DNA of 64,000 bases from Celeribacter sp. HF31. GTDB lineage: Bacteria; Pseudomonadota; Alphaproteobacteria; Rhodobacterales; Rhodobacteraceae. Below the pieces are notes generated by a model. The model worked only from the letters and a program-made list of their open reading frames with translations. It made no database searches and was not told where the DNA came from. The translations under genes were made by a program, and so were the position numbers. Location: NCBI RefSeq assembly GCF_011806455.1, contig NZ_JAATOT010000004.1:310001-374000 (forward strand). The letters are read 5' to 3'. Shown here one piece after another: positions 3,722 through 18,673 of this stretch. The stretch's first letter is position 1. Every line of letters starts with the position of its first letter.

Positions 3722-3949
3722 ATGCTTAGTTTTCAAAATTACCACGCAAAGCGTCTACAAGCCTGGAGGCACCTCAACTATCAGCTGTGCACGCACCTCA
3801 CCGACTTCATGGACGCTTACAGCGTCGCACGCAGGCCAAAGCCCCTCAATGGTCTCATGCCCTACGAATACGTCTGCAAAATCTGGACTTCAGAGTCAGA
3901 TCGTTTCATCCTAAATCCGATCCACAAAATGCCGGGACTGAACACCTAG
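3722..3949 (+). pseudogene. IS481-type transposase, C-terminal remnant
   Basis: Only the last 55-75 residues of a transposase survive. The stretch LTDFMDAYSVARR followed by LNGLMPYEYVCKIWTSE and ending in IHKMPGLNT matches the conserved C-terminus of IS481/IS3-like integrase-fold transposases common in Rhodobacterales. The DDE catalytic region is missing upstream, so this cannot transpose. It lies just outside the MarR genes and marks the left edge of the pyridine catabolic block. An IS6-type remnant lies at the right edge (18281-18673). Confidence 0.75.
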
Positions 3950-4119
3950 TGTTGGCCTCGCATGCGGTTTCTGGGCTCCGGGAGACAAAGGCGGTACAAA
4001 ATTTGGTTGTTTTTCGAGTTGAGGTATTGTTTGGCAAGGCGTGTCGCTAAAAGGTAGTATTAAATGCCGAGTTCGGCGTCATTTTGCGTAACGAGAATTG
4101 CATACTTAAGTCAGGGCGA

Positions 4120-4551
4120 ATGGACACTGGGAACACACATGGGCACTATGTGCTGGATGAGCAGGTGGGCTTCGTTTTGCGTAGGGCTCATCAACGTCAT
4201 ATGACCATCTTTGCTGAGCGGATGGACAGCTTGACGCCTCAACAGTTCTCGACGCTCTACCGGTTGGCGTTATCGAAGGCTCCACTATCTCAGAATGCTT
4301 TGGGGCGATCCGTCGCGATGGATGCAGCGACCACGAAAGGGGTCGTGAACCGACTTGAGGCGCGGGGATTGATCGTGACCGAGAAGGACAAGGAAGATCG
4401 TCGGCGGTATCTTTTGAGCGCGACCGAGGCAGGAAAGGCGCTAATAGCAGAGTGTGTGCCCGTGGTAAGGTCCATTACGGAAGAGACGCTCAAGCCCTTG
4501 ACCGAGGCTGAAAGGCGTACGTTGCTTGCGTTGCTAGATAAAATTAGCTGA
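4120..4551 (+). CDS. MarR-family transcriptional regulator (first of tandem pair)
   Basis: About 143 residues with a winged helix-turn-helix: recognition region LGRSVAMDAATTKGVVNRLEARGLI, wing EKDKEDRRRYLLSATEAG. ATG 4120 is preferred over an in-frame TTG at 4084, which would add 12 atypical residues. A second MarR gene starts 28 bases downstream in the same direction, then the Rieske oxygenase operon. In P. putida a MarR protein (NicR) controls nicotinate degradation, and MarR regulators often sense aromatic acids, so control of the downstream catabolic genes is likely but not proven. Confidence 0.87.
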   Translation: MDTGNTHGHYVLDEQVGFVLRRAHQRHMTIFAERMDSLTPQQFSTLYRLALSKAPLSQNALGRSVAMDAATTKGVVNRLEARGLIVTEKDKEDRRRYLLSATEAGKALIAECVPVVRSITEETLKPLTEAERRTLLALLDKIS

Positions 4552-4579
4552 GATTTGCGTAGAGGATTGAGCGACGACA

Positions 4580-5062
4580 ATGGATCAAAAGAATATGGAT
4601 GAGGCCAAAATAGACATGGCGGAGGCCATAGATGCCTATGATCCACGCAATCATCCGGCACAATTGGTGCGCCGCGTCCATCAGCGCGGAGCGCAGCTTT
4701 TCACGCAGGCGGTTCTGACACCCAACCTGTCGGTGACGCAATTCGTGGCGCTTGTGACGCTTCTTAAGGTGGGCCCCGTGGCGCAGAGCCATCTTGGGCG
4801 ACTAACTTCGATGGATCCGTCCACCACCACCGTCGTGGTGCGCAAGCTCGAAAAAGACGGCCTGATCAAAAAGACGCGCAGCAAGGACGATCAACGCGCC
4901 TCTGTGATTGAGCTGACCGAGGCGGGGCGAGCCTGTGCGGCCGACCATGTGCCAGTCAGCTTGCGCGCAGGCGAAGAGTTGCTTGCCCCGCTGACGCCGA
5001 TTGAACGAACGCTTTTCATGGAGCTTCTGCGCAAGGTGATGAGCGGCGCAGATGAGTCGTAA
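4580..5062 (+). CDS. MarR-family transcriptional regulator (second of tandem pair)
   Basis: 160 residues. The winged helix core is LGRLTSMDPSTTTVVVRKLEKDGLI with wing RSKDDQRASVIELTEAG, clearly related to the upstream MarR protein. The N-terminus carries an extra acidic segment of about 20 residues. The gene sits 240 bases before the Rieske oxygenase gene, and the gap contains a TTAGT-n4-ACTAA palindrome (5251-5264) of the size MarR dimers bind. The tandem pair may bind as homo- or heterodimers. The ligand is unknown. Confidence 0.87.
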   Translation: MDQKNMDEAKIDMAEAIDAYDPRNHPAQLVRRVHQRGAQLFTQAVLTPNLSVTQFVALVTLLKVGPVAQSHLGRLTSMDPSTTTVVVRKLEKDGLIKKTRSKDDQRASVIELTEAGRACAADHVPVSLRAGEELLAPLTPIERTLFMELLRKVMSGADES

Positions 5063-5229
5063 AGATCGAAAATAAATACGTACTCATATAAAATTTCATC
5101 CATCCGAAACCCATCGCGCTGTTTCTCGCCTTTTCGATTTGCGCCACATTCGCACAAATATTGCGCATATATGGTGAAATTTACCGTAAAAAATACCGAA
5201 ATATCGCGAAAATCCTCAAATCCCCAAAT

Positions 5230-5243
5230 TTGATCTGGATCAA
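5230..5243. promoter_or_regulatory. perfect FNR/CRP-type box
   Basis: TTGATCTGGATCAA matches the FNR consensus TTGAT-n4-ATCAA at every fixed position. It lies inside a longer palindrome with 9-bp arms AATTTGATC/GATCAAATT (5227-5246). The site is 60 bases upstream of the Rieske oxygenase start, a position where an FnrL-type regulator could block the promoter without oxygen or activate it. It suggests oxygen-linked control of an oxygen-consuming enzyme. Confidence 0.7.
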
Positions 5244-5250
5244 ATTACTT

Positions 5251-5264
5251 TTAGTACGCACTAA
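5251..5264. promoter_or_regulatory. putative MarR operator palindrome
   Basis: TTAGTACGCACTAA, an inverted repeat of TTAGT/ACTAA with a four-base centre, 39 bases before the Rieske oxygenase ATG and directly after the FNR-type box. Its size suits a MarR dimer, and two MarR genes lie just upstream. Binding is inferred. Confidence 0.5.
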
Positions 5265-16816: not shown

Positions 16817-16824
16817 CGTAATTA

Positions 16825-16850
16825 AAAAACGGCCCCCGCGGGGGCCGTTT
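16825..16850. terminator. bidirectional rho-independent terminator
   Basis: A perfect 26-bp palindrome: AAAACGGCCCCCG followed by its reverse complement. The A- and T-rich ends give a U-tract in both directions. It lies between the convergent flavin reductase and nicC genes. Confidence 0.88.
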
Positions 16851-16855
16851 TCATA

Positions 16856-17998
16856 TCAGGCGAGGTCCGCCGTCATCGGGTCATAGGCGTAAACCCAAGC
16901 CGGATCTTCCGGCTCCTTGAGCCAGGTGTTGGCGTTGGAGATCGTCTGCACTTTGGTGGCCCGGGAGTGGCGGGTCGCCTCGTAGGTTTTGAATGCAGAG
17001 GCATAATCTTCCATACCGGAGATCGACAGCGCGCGGGTCAGAACGGCGGCATCTTCGATCGCCATGCAGGCGCCTTGGGCCATATGCGGGCGCATCGGGT
17101 GGCAGGCATCGCCCAGCATGACAAGGCGCCCTTGGCTCCAGAGGTTCATCACATCGCGGTTCCAGAACGGCCATTTTGTGACGGTCTCTGTCGCGTCGAT
17201 CAGCGCCTGCACGACGGGGTGCGAGCTGCCAAAGATCGCTTCCATCTCTTCGCGGGAGCTGTCGACAAAACTTGCTTCGTGATCCCAACTGTCCACAGGC
17301 ACGCCGGTCACATAGTAATGCTCAGATTGATCGTTTTTCGTGGCGTAGGTCATGATGTGACGGGACTGTTCCCACCACCATTTCACGCAGGGCTCAAGAT
17401 CGACGCCGGAGGCGCGCAGCTTGTCCATGTTGACCAGCGCCCGGTGTCCGATCCAGCCGCTGTAACGCGGTTTTTCGACGCCCAGAAGTTTCTCGCGGAT
17501 CATTGAGTTGATGCCATCGGCCCCGACGACAAGTTTCGCTGCAACCTTGTTTCCATTGGCGAAGGTCAAAAGAACGTCACTGTCGCGTTCTTCGATGTCG
17601 GTCAGGCGATGGTCGAAATGCACCGTATCTTGGGGCAGGGCGTTGATCTGTTCGGCATGCAGGTCGCCCCGGTGAATGGTGATGTAGGAGGCGCCGTATT
17701 CCTTTTTGGCGTAATCGCCCAAGGGGATTTTCGACAGATAATCGCCGGTGAGGCCATCGCGAGAGAACCAGAAATCCGGGTGGGAGCCAATCTCTTCGAG
17801 TCGTTTCTCAAGCCCGATCTGGCGGAAGATTTTCATCACGTTCGGTCCGATATGGATACCTGCGCCGAGACGAGTGAATTCCGGAGCCTGCTCGAAGGTG
17901 TGAACGGAAAAACCTGCGTTGAGAAGAAGAGCCGCGGCCGCAGCTCCCCCGAGGCCTGCGCCGATCACTGCAATGTCTACTTGGTCGATCTGTGTCAT
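16856..17998 (-). CDS. nicC: 6-hydroxynicotinate 3-monooxygenase NicC
   Basis: 380 residues, a group A FAD monooxygenase close in length to P. putida NicC (382). The FAD motif is [15 protein letters not shown]; the second FAD motif is [20 protein letters not shown]. NicC-like stretches include [25 protein letters not shown] and [20 protein letters not shown]. It decarboxylates and hydroxylates 6-hydroxynicotinate to 2,5-dihydroxypyridine, the NicX substrate. It converges on the nicE operon and has its own palindromic operator upstream. Confidence 0.92.
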
Positions 17999-18023
17999 GT
18001 GTGGTCCTGTGCGTCAGAATCAA

Positions 18024-18045
18024 ATTTGTTTGTGTACAAACAAAT
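18024..18045. promoter_or_regulatory. operator type B, copy 2 (nicC promoter)
   Basis: A 22-bp palindrome with 10-bp arms ATTTGTTTGT and ACAAACAAAT around GT, 26 bases upstream of the nicC start. A close copy lies before tctC at 8638-8659. The TACAAA core resembles GntR-family sites, but the binding protein is not identified. Confidence 0.6.
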
Positions 18046-18280
18046 AGCATATCAAAATGAGAACACTCAAAGATTATTGTCCGTTTATCATTTGAAAATT
18101 AATCTGACGCCCAAAATTTAAGCTTTGAACCCTTCCGGCCGAGCCGCTTAAAGCAAAACGTCAGGTCTAGATCCGGCGTCTGCAGCAAGAAAATAAGTGC
18201 CGTGGCGGAGCGTGCAGAGCGGCCAGCGGTGTTGTCACGTTAACTTTTGCGGCTTGCAAGAGCGGCCGGTTTCTGCTGGT

Positions 18281-18673
18281 TCAGGCTATGTCGGCTGTGG
18301 TTACCCAGGCTTTGAGCCTTCGGTGATATCGTATAGTCAAGGCGGCACGGCGTCTGGATGGAAGGGTAAAACAATTTCGGATGGCGGAATGAACTGACAC
18401 GAACCGCTTTAATCCGTTCGGTGGCCGGAAGCTTTGCATCGCTCGTTCTCGCTTGCGAAATGGCAGGTGGCTATTCTCGGCGCGATTGTTGAGGCCCTTG
18501 TGCGCGCAATGATCAAGGCCTGGCGCCACTTCCCGTTTGGCCGCCCCATAGGAACGGAGCTTGTCGGTAATGATCCGTTTGGGCAGCCTGTGACATTTGA
18601 TCAGGCGGAGCAGCACCTGTTTCGCGGCCCGCTTGTCGCGCTTATAGCTGATTGACGGTGTCTGCATCAGCAC
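18281..18673 (-). pseudogene. IS6-family transposase, C-terminal remnant
   Basis: About 110 recognisable residues: KRDKRAAKQVLL, IITDKLRSYGAAKREV and HKGLNNRAENSHLPFRKRER are diagnostic of IS6/IS26-type transposases and include the second Asp and the Glu of the DDE triad. The N-terminal third with the first Asp is missing, so it is inactive. With the IS481 remnant at 3722-3949 it brackets the pyridine island. Confidence 0.82.

Follow-up and report, generated by a model that had tools for sequence, protein, structure and literature searches.

Rieske oxygenase and TIM-barrel protein genes beside a nic lower pathway without detected NicAB in Celeribacter sp. HF31: a candidate demethylating route to 6-hydroxynicotinate

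Nicotinate is converted into fumarate via 6-hydroxynicotinate (6HNA) and maleamate by the nic-encoded enzymes of Pseudomonas putida KT2440 and Bordetella. In the lower part of this pathway, the single-component enzyme NicC, together with NicX, NicD, NicF and NicE, turns 6HNA into fumarate, ammonia, formate and CO2. In Acinetobacter baylyi, TgnAB degrades the N-methylated pyridine carboxylate trigonelline by a flavin-dependent opening of the ring that yields methylamine and succinate, and neither NicC nor NicX is known to take part. N-demethylation of caffeine has been reported to release formaldehyde, and the frmA and frmB genes flank the ndm genes in strain CBB5 (PMC4408171). Here we analyzed a stretch of 64,000 nucleotides from the marine bacterium Celeribacter sp. 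HF31 (assembly GCF_011806455.1, contig NZ_JAATOT010000004.1, positions 310,001 to 374,000 of the forward strand), hereafter named the window. Positions 3722 to 18673 of the window carry a nic island, in which genes for a Rieske oxygenase, a TIM-barrel protein (hereafter TIM) and a VanB-type reductase precede a set of lower pathway genes.

We lean towards the explanation that this triad would demethylate a methylated 6-oxo-nicotinate, most likely N-methyl-6-pyridone-3-carboxylate, and would thereby feed 6HNA to NicC without the nicotinate hydroxylase NicAB. From the genes, the unsuccessful search for NicAB, the recurrence of the linkage and the neighboring genes, all read from sequence, we infer the demethylation, its substrate, the role of TIM, the transport and the regulator ligands as follows. 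The transporter TctCBA would bring in the methylated pyridine carboxylate. The Rieske oxygenase, receiving electrons from the VanB-type reductase, would hydroxylate the methyl group, and TIM would help to split the hydroxymethyl adduct into formaldehyde and 6HNA, which the five lower pathway enzymes would take to fumarate, ammonia, formate and CO2. Of two MarR-family regulators, the methylated compound would be the ligand of MarR2 and 6HNA that of MarR1.

Lower pathway genes and the search for NicAB

Open reading frames were present for all island genes named, in the order two tandem marR genes, Rieske, TIM, VanB-type reductase, tctCBA, tetR, nicE-nicD-nicX-nicF and flavin reductase, followed by nicC on the minus strand. 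These gene identities are beyond chance, with E-values far below 1e-20, and the linkage was seen again in other genomes. A first-pass annotation of the window had described nicC, nicX, nicD, nicF and nicE with a TctCBA importer in one block, insertion sequence (IS) remnants at both ends, and a Rieske oxygenase and VanB-type reductase with a TIM gene between them; all of this stands, the five nic genes being intact. Four further genes are added to that list, namely two of the MarR family in tandem (4084-5062), one coding for a TetR regulator (12045-12719) and one for a flavin reductase (16208-16816).

NicC, NicX, NicE and NicF were orthologues of the maleamate (nic) lower pathway with strong matches to solved enzymes. 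The maleate cis-trans isomerase NicE (12831-13580, plus strand) matched 4fq7 (422 bits), the 2,5-dihydroxypyridine 5,6-dioxygenase NicX (14403-15434, plus strand) matched 7cn3 (323 bits), and the maleamate amidohydrolase NicF (15520-16140, plus strand) matched 4l07 (352 bits), an isochorismatase-family hydrolase that we take to be a maleamate amidase. The 6HNA 3-monooxygenase NicC (16856-17998, minus strand) aligned over its full length with the solved 6HNA monooxygenase 5eow (545 bits), in an intact frame, and His47, Cys202, His211, Tyr215 and His302, presumably its active-site residues, look conserved in this alignment. NicD (13593-14369, plus strand), an alpha/beta hydrolase with no NCBIfam model above its cut-off, was named as a putative N-formylmaleamate deformylase by its conserved position in the nic gene order.

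Protein changes private to the window or to Pacificibacter marinus were counted with Mangrovicoccus algicola as the outgroup, protein counts alone being used because synonymous divergence was high or saturated. The counts for the window and P. marinus, respectively, were 13 and 15 in NicC, 5 and 10 in NicX, 3 and 10 in NicE, 5 and 11 in NicD, 10 and 7 in NicF, 15 and 15 in the Rieske oxygenase, and 10 and 21 in TIM. They show no hint of decay in the nic, Rieske or TIM genes. Since private changes in NicC were not raised compared with P. marinus, the nicC gene is not visibly decaying without NicAB.

The first-pass annotation had also noted that NicAB was absent, and had named beforehand an intact, co-regulated nicAB elsewhere in the genome as a finding that would speak against a new entry into the pathway. 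In the assembly of Celeribacter sp. HF31 (13 contigs, 96.3% complete), PF02738 and PF20256 each matched one single, identical protein, which lies in an xdhA-xdhB-xdhC-like layout, is of the xanthine dehydrogenase type and shares 51% identity with a Pseudomonas profundi protein of the same type. As a candidate NicB, this sole MoCoBD protein was ruled out by its xdh-like layout and by its identity to NicB of just 23-31%, in short pieces. A search with the N-terminal 637 residues of M. algicola NicB gave no match in the genome at E <= 1e-10, and no nicA or nicB pieces were found by tblastn within the window. NicAB is thus the part of the complete nicotinate pathway (NicABCDEFX) that was not found in this genome, and the check named beforehand did not refute the new entry.

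The Rieske-TIM-reductase genes and their regulators

The Rieske oxygenase (5303-6373, plus strand) has Pfam Rieske and VanA_C domains, a C-x-H / C-x2-H motif and a 2-His-1-Asp iron site, as in the VanA/DdmC type. Residues C49, H51, C68, H71, H160, H165 and D297 were invariant across 17 aligned sequences; their roles in the motif and iron site are presumed from family knowledge. The nearest solved structures to its model (pLDDT 86) were the dicamba and guaiacol O-demethylases, followed further down by NdmA and NdmB. Among the weaker matches was 2-oxo-1,2-dihydroquinoline 8-monooxygenase, a Rieske enzyme hydroxylating an N-heterocycle. The protein is the proposed demethylase component.

TIM (6424-7497, plus strand) matched the xylose-isomerase-like family PF01261 with 27.1 bits, under the curated cut-off of 31.1. 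Its model (pLDDT 93.7) had sugar epimerases and isomerases as neighbors in the Protein Data Bank (PDB), at a query TM of about 0.5 and 9-14% identity, and a PDB sequence search with the TIM profile gave no match. Residues E140, D172, H175 and R226, among the invariant ones of the alignment, could form a metal site. One relative was omitted from the TIM alignments because of a stop in its translation, and others were omitted for size (42 rows in alignment A3, 33 in A4). We propose that TIM may be an N-hydroxymethyl lyase or an accessory of demethylation. Its gene overlaps by 8 bp that of the reductase (7490-8545, plus strand), in which Pfam found only FAD, NAD and 2Fe-2S ferredoxin (Fer2) domains, and the Rieske, TIM and reductase genes likely form one operon. 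The genes for TctC, the solute-binding protein of a tripartite tricarboxylate transporter (8852-9838), TctB (9891-10427) and TctA (10440-11957), all identified by Pfam, follow on the plus strand.

The two regulators, both identified by Pfam, were aligned with BpsR, which is reported to bind 6HNA via Tyr15 (6-hydroxy group), Arg26 (carboxylate), His32 (ring nitrogen) and His23, residues that P. putida NicR is said not to retain (PMC6837509). The BpsR-like MarR1 (4084-4551, plus strand, likely start at 4120) keeps Tyr15, Arg26 and His32, which were present in all ten MarR1 rows aligned. MarR2 (4580-5062, plus strand), adjoining the Rieske gene, keeps Tyr15 and Arg26, with His32 replaced by Gly and His23 by Gln. 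Among the MarR2 rows aligned, Tyr15 and Arg26 were found in seven out of seven, position 32 was Gly (five) or Val (two), and position 23 was Gln. Such a pocket would suit a ligand methylated at the ring nitrogen. A motif scan of the stretch between the MarR2 and Rieske genes revealed an imperfect palindrome, TTAGTACGCACTAA (5251-5264), which differs by one base from the perfect TTAGTACGTACTAA of P. marinus L033 and is proposed as a candidate MarR2 operator.

Recurrence of the linkage and competing explanations

When genome contigs were scanned with a profile of the TIM alignment, 80 loci were retained from 148 relatives. All locus counts refer to these 80, and absence of nicC or NicC at a locus applies to the stretch examined around it. 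Rieske genes of the queried kinds were found in 47 of these loci, including 26 of the 32 nearest ones. The Rieske-TIM pair was linked to nic genes in eight, belonging to Alpha-, Beta- and Gammaproteobacteria and showing differing gene orders: P. marinus (two genomes, each with both gene sets on one contig), M. algicola, Halopseudomonas xiamenensis, P. profundi, Acinetobacter albensis, Acinetobacter sp. ANC 3781 (nicX, nicF, nicE, nicD and nicC on the 21,498-base contig of the pair) and Variovorax paradoxus ISL-3. In the latter (L154:2543-15360), two Rieske-TIM pairs flank the nic genes, one Rieske protein being 55% identical to that of the window, and a NicB-like protein is encoded elsewhere in the genome. 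On the TIM tree, the nic label, which includes three loci with nicC on a different contig of the same genome, requires three or more gains or losses on branches with good support; in M. ximenensis, Poseidonocella and Mangrovicoccus sp., nicC and NicB lie on contigs other than that of Rieske-TIM.

Of 14 genomes searched for NicC, 10 had it at 55% identity or more, and the others, V. dokdonensis, Variovorax WDL1, Ramlibacter and Xenophilus azovorans, gave matches of 36-38% only. NicB was matched in 10 of 15 genomes (five alphaproteobacterial ones at 66-90%, three Variovorax and X. azovorans at 56-57%, Ramlibacter at 40%) and was not found at E <= 1e-10 in the remaining five, namely the window genome, H. 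xiamenensis, P. profundi and both Acinetobacter. A MoCoBD_2 search also gave no match in H. xiamenensis or either Acinetobacter. All four gammaproteobacterial genomes carry nicC, nicX, nicD, nicE and nicF close to Rieske-TIM. Since NicC acts on 6HNA and no NicB was found in the window genome or in these four genomes, the demethylated product should already bear the 6-oxo group. We favor N-methyl-6-pyridone-3-carboxylate because its N-methyl lactam resembles the N-methyls of caffeine and its demethylation would give 6HNA directly. Compounds related to it are trigonelline and N-methyl-2-pyridone-5-carboxamide, an end-product of NAD in animals. Homarine, which is N-methylpicolinate, was rejected as a substrate, as its demethylation would not lead to 6HNA. 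Among the matches listed in the open-access literature, there was no paper on homarine genes and nothing joining a Rieske enzyme to 6HNA or to a methylated pyridone acid; PMC12746152 concerns riboflavin catabolism and has 6HNA only among its references.

The genes surrounding TIM in other bacteria point to formaldehyde release. In A. albensis (L046:8919-21025 and L155:1-15317), the order was Rieske, TIM, molybdenum-cofactor genes, fdhD, an FdhF/YdeP-family oxidoreductase, a glutathione-independent formaldehyde dehydrogenase and a VanB-type reductase, then nicX, a nitroreductase, nicF, nicE, nicD, nicC, a second isochorismatase-like hydrolase, a gene with a weak cytosine-permease match (46 bits) and marR. 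This cluster would suit a neutral amide start, e.g. N-methyl-2-pyridone-5-carboxamide. In both Acinetobacter clusters, genes for FdhD, the molybdenum cofactor, the formaldehyde dehydrogenase and the FdhF/YdeP-family oxidoreductase lie between TIM and nicX, and the latter two proteins reached 754 bits (cut-off 637) and 946 bits (cut-off 582), respectively. Formaldehyde-oxidation genes (FrmA, FghA or FdhA) were present in 16 of the 80 TIM loci and an NdmC-like gene in 14, with 10 loci carrying both.

TIM homologues (37-41% identity) were also found in ndmC/D/E-type plasmid clusters, with frmA/fghA in two of the four shown; the NdmC, NdmD and NdmE names were assigned by domain make-up and gene order following PMC4408171, with no CBB5 sequence compared. 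Such methylxanthine-type clusters with a TIM gene occur on Pseudomonas, Klebsiella and Paraburkholderia plasmids. Acinetobacter plasmids carry a relative of TIM in the vicinity of one gene for a Rieske protein and one for a purine-type permease (38 Acinetobacter records matched). A broader and more tentative proposal, which we hold to be possible without considering it probable, is that the triad would be an N-demethylase for N-methyl-6-pyridone-3-carboxylate and TIM a new type of enzyme splitting stable N-hydroxymethyl lactams, in bacterial caffeine degradation as well. PMC13237722 describes the Escherichia coli methylxanthine operon with ndmA-D and gst9 (or ndmE) only, so that TIM appears not to be essential for methylxanthine demethylation there.

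Within a family sample of 394 genomes, including that of the window, TIM was found in two, the window genome and M. algicola. NicX was present at 87% identity or more in seven genomes and at 45-49% in two others, the remaining matches being at most 38%. Four of the seven carry NicB (M. algicola, G238, G107 and G128). Two others of the seven (G002 and G009), with no NicB at E <= 1e-60, had no NicC in the stretch examined and had other molybdenum-hydroxylase genes nearby. Loci L204 and L207, from two family genomes, hold nicE, nicD, nicX and nicF close to other molybdenum-hydroxylase genes, with no NicC in the stretch and no NicB, suggesting a different upper pathway. The nic lower pathway is thus joined to different upper modules among family genomes. 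NicC without NicB was seen among the seven NicX genomes solely in that of the window, NicC not having been searched across all 394, and both TIM and NicX are missing from the single listed genome of the same genus.

Several observations weigh against the demethylation of a methylated 6-oxo-nicotinate. Six relatives with an orthologous Rieske-TIM pair (83-89% Rieske identity) carry NicB. The Rieske enzyme of these relatives could therefore make nicotinate, and lacking NicAB does not characterize the module within that clade. The gammaproteobacterial Rieske proteins are just 43-45% identical to that of the window and may act on another substrate; their nearer kin (61-63%) sit in Comamonadaceae-type loci, 15 of 16 of which have no nicC. 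In four of five Comamonadaceae-type genomes, a NicC search gave nothing above 38%. NicB-like proteins at 56-57% were found in four of the five, and three Comamonadaceae genomes combine such a protein and Rieske-TIM with no NicC above 38%. Moreover, 33 of the 80 TIM loci, two of them among housekeeping genes, have no Rieske gene of the queried kinds, and P. profundi encodes, beside the xanthine dehydrogenase-like protein, a second MoCoBD protein that is neither of this type nor NicB (25% identity to NicB) and may be a different nicotinate hydroxylase. At 96.3% completeness, there is a small risk that nicAB lies in the missing part of the window assembly. No formaldehyde gene was seen inside the island, and two class III formaldehyde dehydrogenase genes are located elsewhere in the genome. 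Regarding the regulators, His23 of BpsR is Phe in MarR1, Tyr15 and Arg26 are also present in regulator 2nnn, so that these two residues may be a family trait, and the palindrome between MarR2 and Rieske was found in two of the six regions scanned and in none of the four other relatives.

The first alternative, which we regard as unlikely, is that trigonelline (N-methylnicotinate) is N-demethylated by the triad and that the resulting nicotinate is oxidized by NicAB in the relatives. The window genome would then have lost nicAB, with the IS6 remnant as a possible site of the loss, and would use nicotinate for NAD only. The six relatives with nicB and the same Rieske-TIM fit this scenario, as does the Mangrovicoccus/Poseidonocella layout, in which nicB is directly upstream of nicC, the position of the IS6 remnant in the window. 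However, in the nearest relative, P. marinus, nicC is divergent from tetR and nicAB follows nicF. A deletion at the IS6 site is therefore not implied, and the remnant as the exact deletion point was discarded as unsupported. The intact and not faster evolving NicC of the window, the four gammaproteobacterial genomes with a lower pathway and no NicB found, and the retention in MarR2 of the Tyr residue by which BpsR contacts the 6-oxo group also argue against trigonelline. The first-pass annotation had proposed, as one of two options beside the import of 6HNA, a new upper pathway via the Rieske system, with trigonelline as an example of an N-methylated substrate. The new upper pathway gains from the recurrence beside nic genes in three classes, NicB-free genomes included, and from the Acinetobacter formaldehyde genes, and loses from the six NicB-bearing relatives. 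Demethylation is supported, but trigonelline fits less well than a methylated 6-oxo-nicotinate, since its product nicotinate would still need a nicotinate hydroxylase, of which none was found in this genome.

Less probable still is that TctCBA, presumably compatible with aromatic carboxylate cargo, imports 6HNA itself, the Rieske triad being a chance neighbor that acts on an unrelated methylated carboxylate. The Comamonadaceae-type loci without nicC agree with such independence, whereas the recurrence of the linkage in three classes with differing gene orders, and the resemblance of MarR2 to the 6HNA-sensing BpsR, do not. Direct hydroxylation of nicotinate at C6 by the Rieske enzyme, as an iron hydroxylase in place of NicAB, would explain the NicAB-free genomes in one step and has a precedent among the weaker matches in the N-heterocycle-hydroxylating 8-monooxygenase; we nevertheless consider it improbable, given that demethylases are the closest structures, that the Acinetobacter clusters contain formaldehyde dehydrogenase and formate-dehydrogenase-like genes, and that TIM homologues reside in demethylation-type clusters. 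We find it just as improbable that the triad, by the same demethylase logic, removes an O-methyl group, e.g. from 6-methoxynicotinate, or demethylates some other methylated 6HNA derivative. In favor of this, the two best structural matches of the Rieske protein are O-demethylases, but the TIM homologues are linked to N-demethylase-type genes and 6-methoxynicotinate is presumably not common in nature.

Island borders and comparison with known systems

The left end of the island is an IS481-family transposase C-terminal remnant (3722-3949, plus strand), with 62% identity over 97% to annotated IS481 transposases by tblastn and zero matches in a Pfam search. At the right end, upstream of nicC, Pfam identified a remnant of an IS6-family (IS240-type DDE) transposase (18281-18673, minus strand), past which an IclR regulator and an FAD-linked oxidase are encoded (18932-21108). 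The GC content of the island (58.0%) compared with the remaining window (59.6%) gives no sign of a recent foreign origin. The TetR-family regulator gene (plus strand; Pfam) precedes nicE also in four mapped relatives, M. algicola, P. marinus, Poseidonocella and Mangrovicoccus sp. The flavin reductase-like gene (plus strand) likewise follows nicF in two relatives (68% identity). A perfect palindrome, TTTGTTTGTGTACAAACAAA (18025-18044), lies just upstream of nicC and is a possible regulator site.

If 6HNA is indeed supplied by demethylation, the island would represent a NicAB-independent bacterial entry into the maleamate pathway, by which organisms without a nicotinate molybdenum hydroxylase could use methylated pyridones. 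For the Rieske-TIM pair, with its TIM homologue in caffeine-type clusters as well, it would also suggest both a substrate and a partner enzyme.

Among the solved Rieske structures, DdmC and guaiacol O-demethylase (7qwt) are the closest to the window oxygenase (TM of about 0.85, 28-29% identity). These enzymes remove O-methyl groups, unlike the N-demethylation proposed here, and we know of no TIM partner for either. With TgnAB of A. baylyi, the proposed route would share the breakdown of an N-methylated pyridine carboxylate, and differ in that TgnAB presumably opens the ring without NicC or NicX. The ndm caffeine clusters of the P. putida CBB5 type, as described in PMC4408171, have in common with the island their Rieske oxygenases, which release formaldehyde, and a TIM homologue occurs in such clusters. 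In contrast, VanA/DdmC rather than NdmA is the nearer match to the window oxygenase, the additional Rieske domain that NdmD has is missing from the reductase, and no NdmC-like or NdmE-like (glutathione-transferase-like) gene was found among the island open reading frames. The nic clusters of P. putida KT2440 and Bordetella resemble the island in NicC, NicX, NicF, NicE, the putative NicD and a BpsR-like MarR protein as a candidate 6HNA regulator, whereas in the window, where NicAB was not found, the lower pathway is preceded by a likely Rieske-TIM-reductase operon with a MarR regulator of its own and by a Tct importer.

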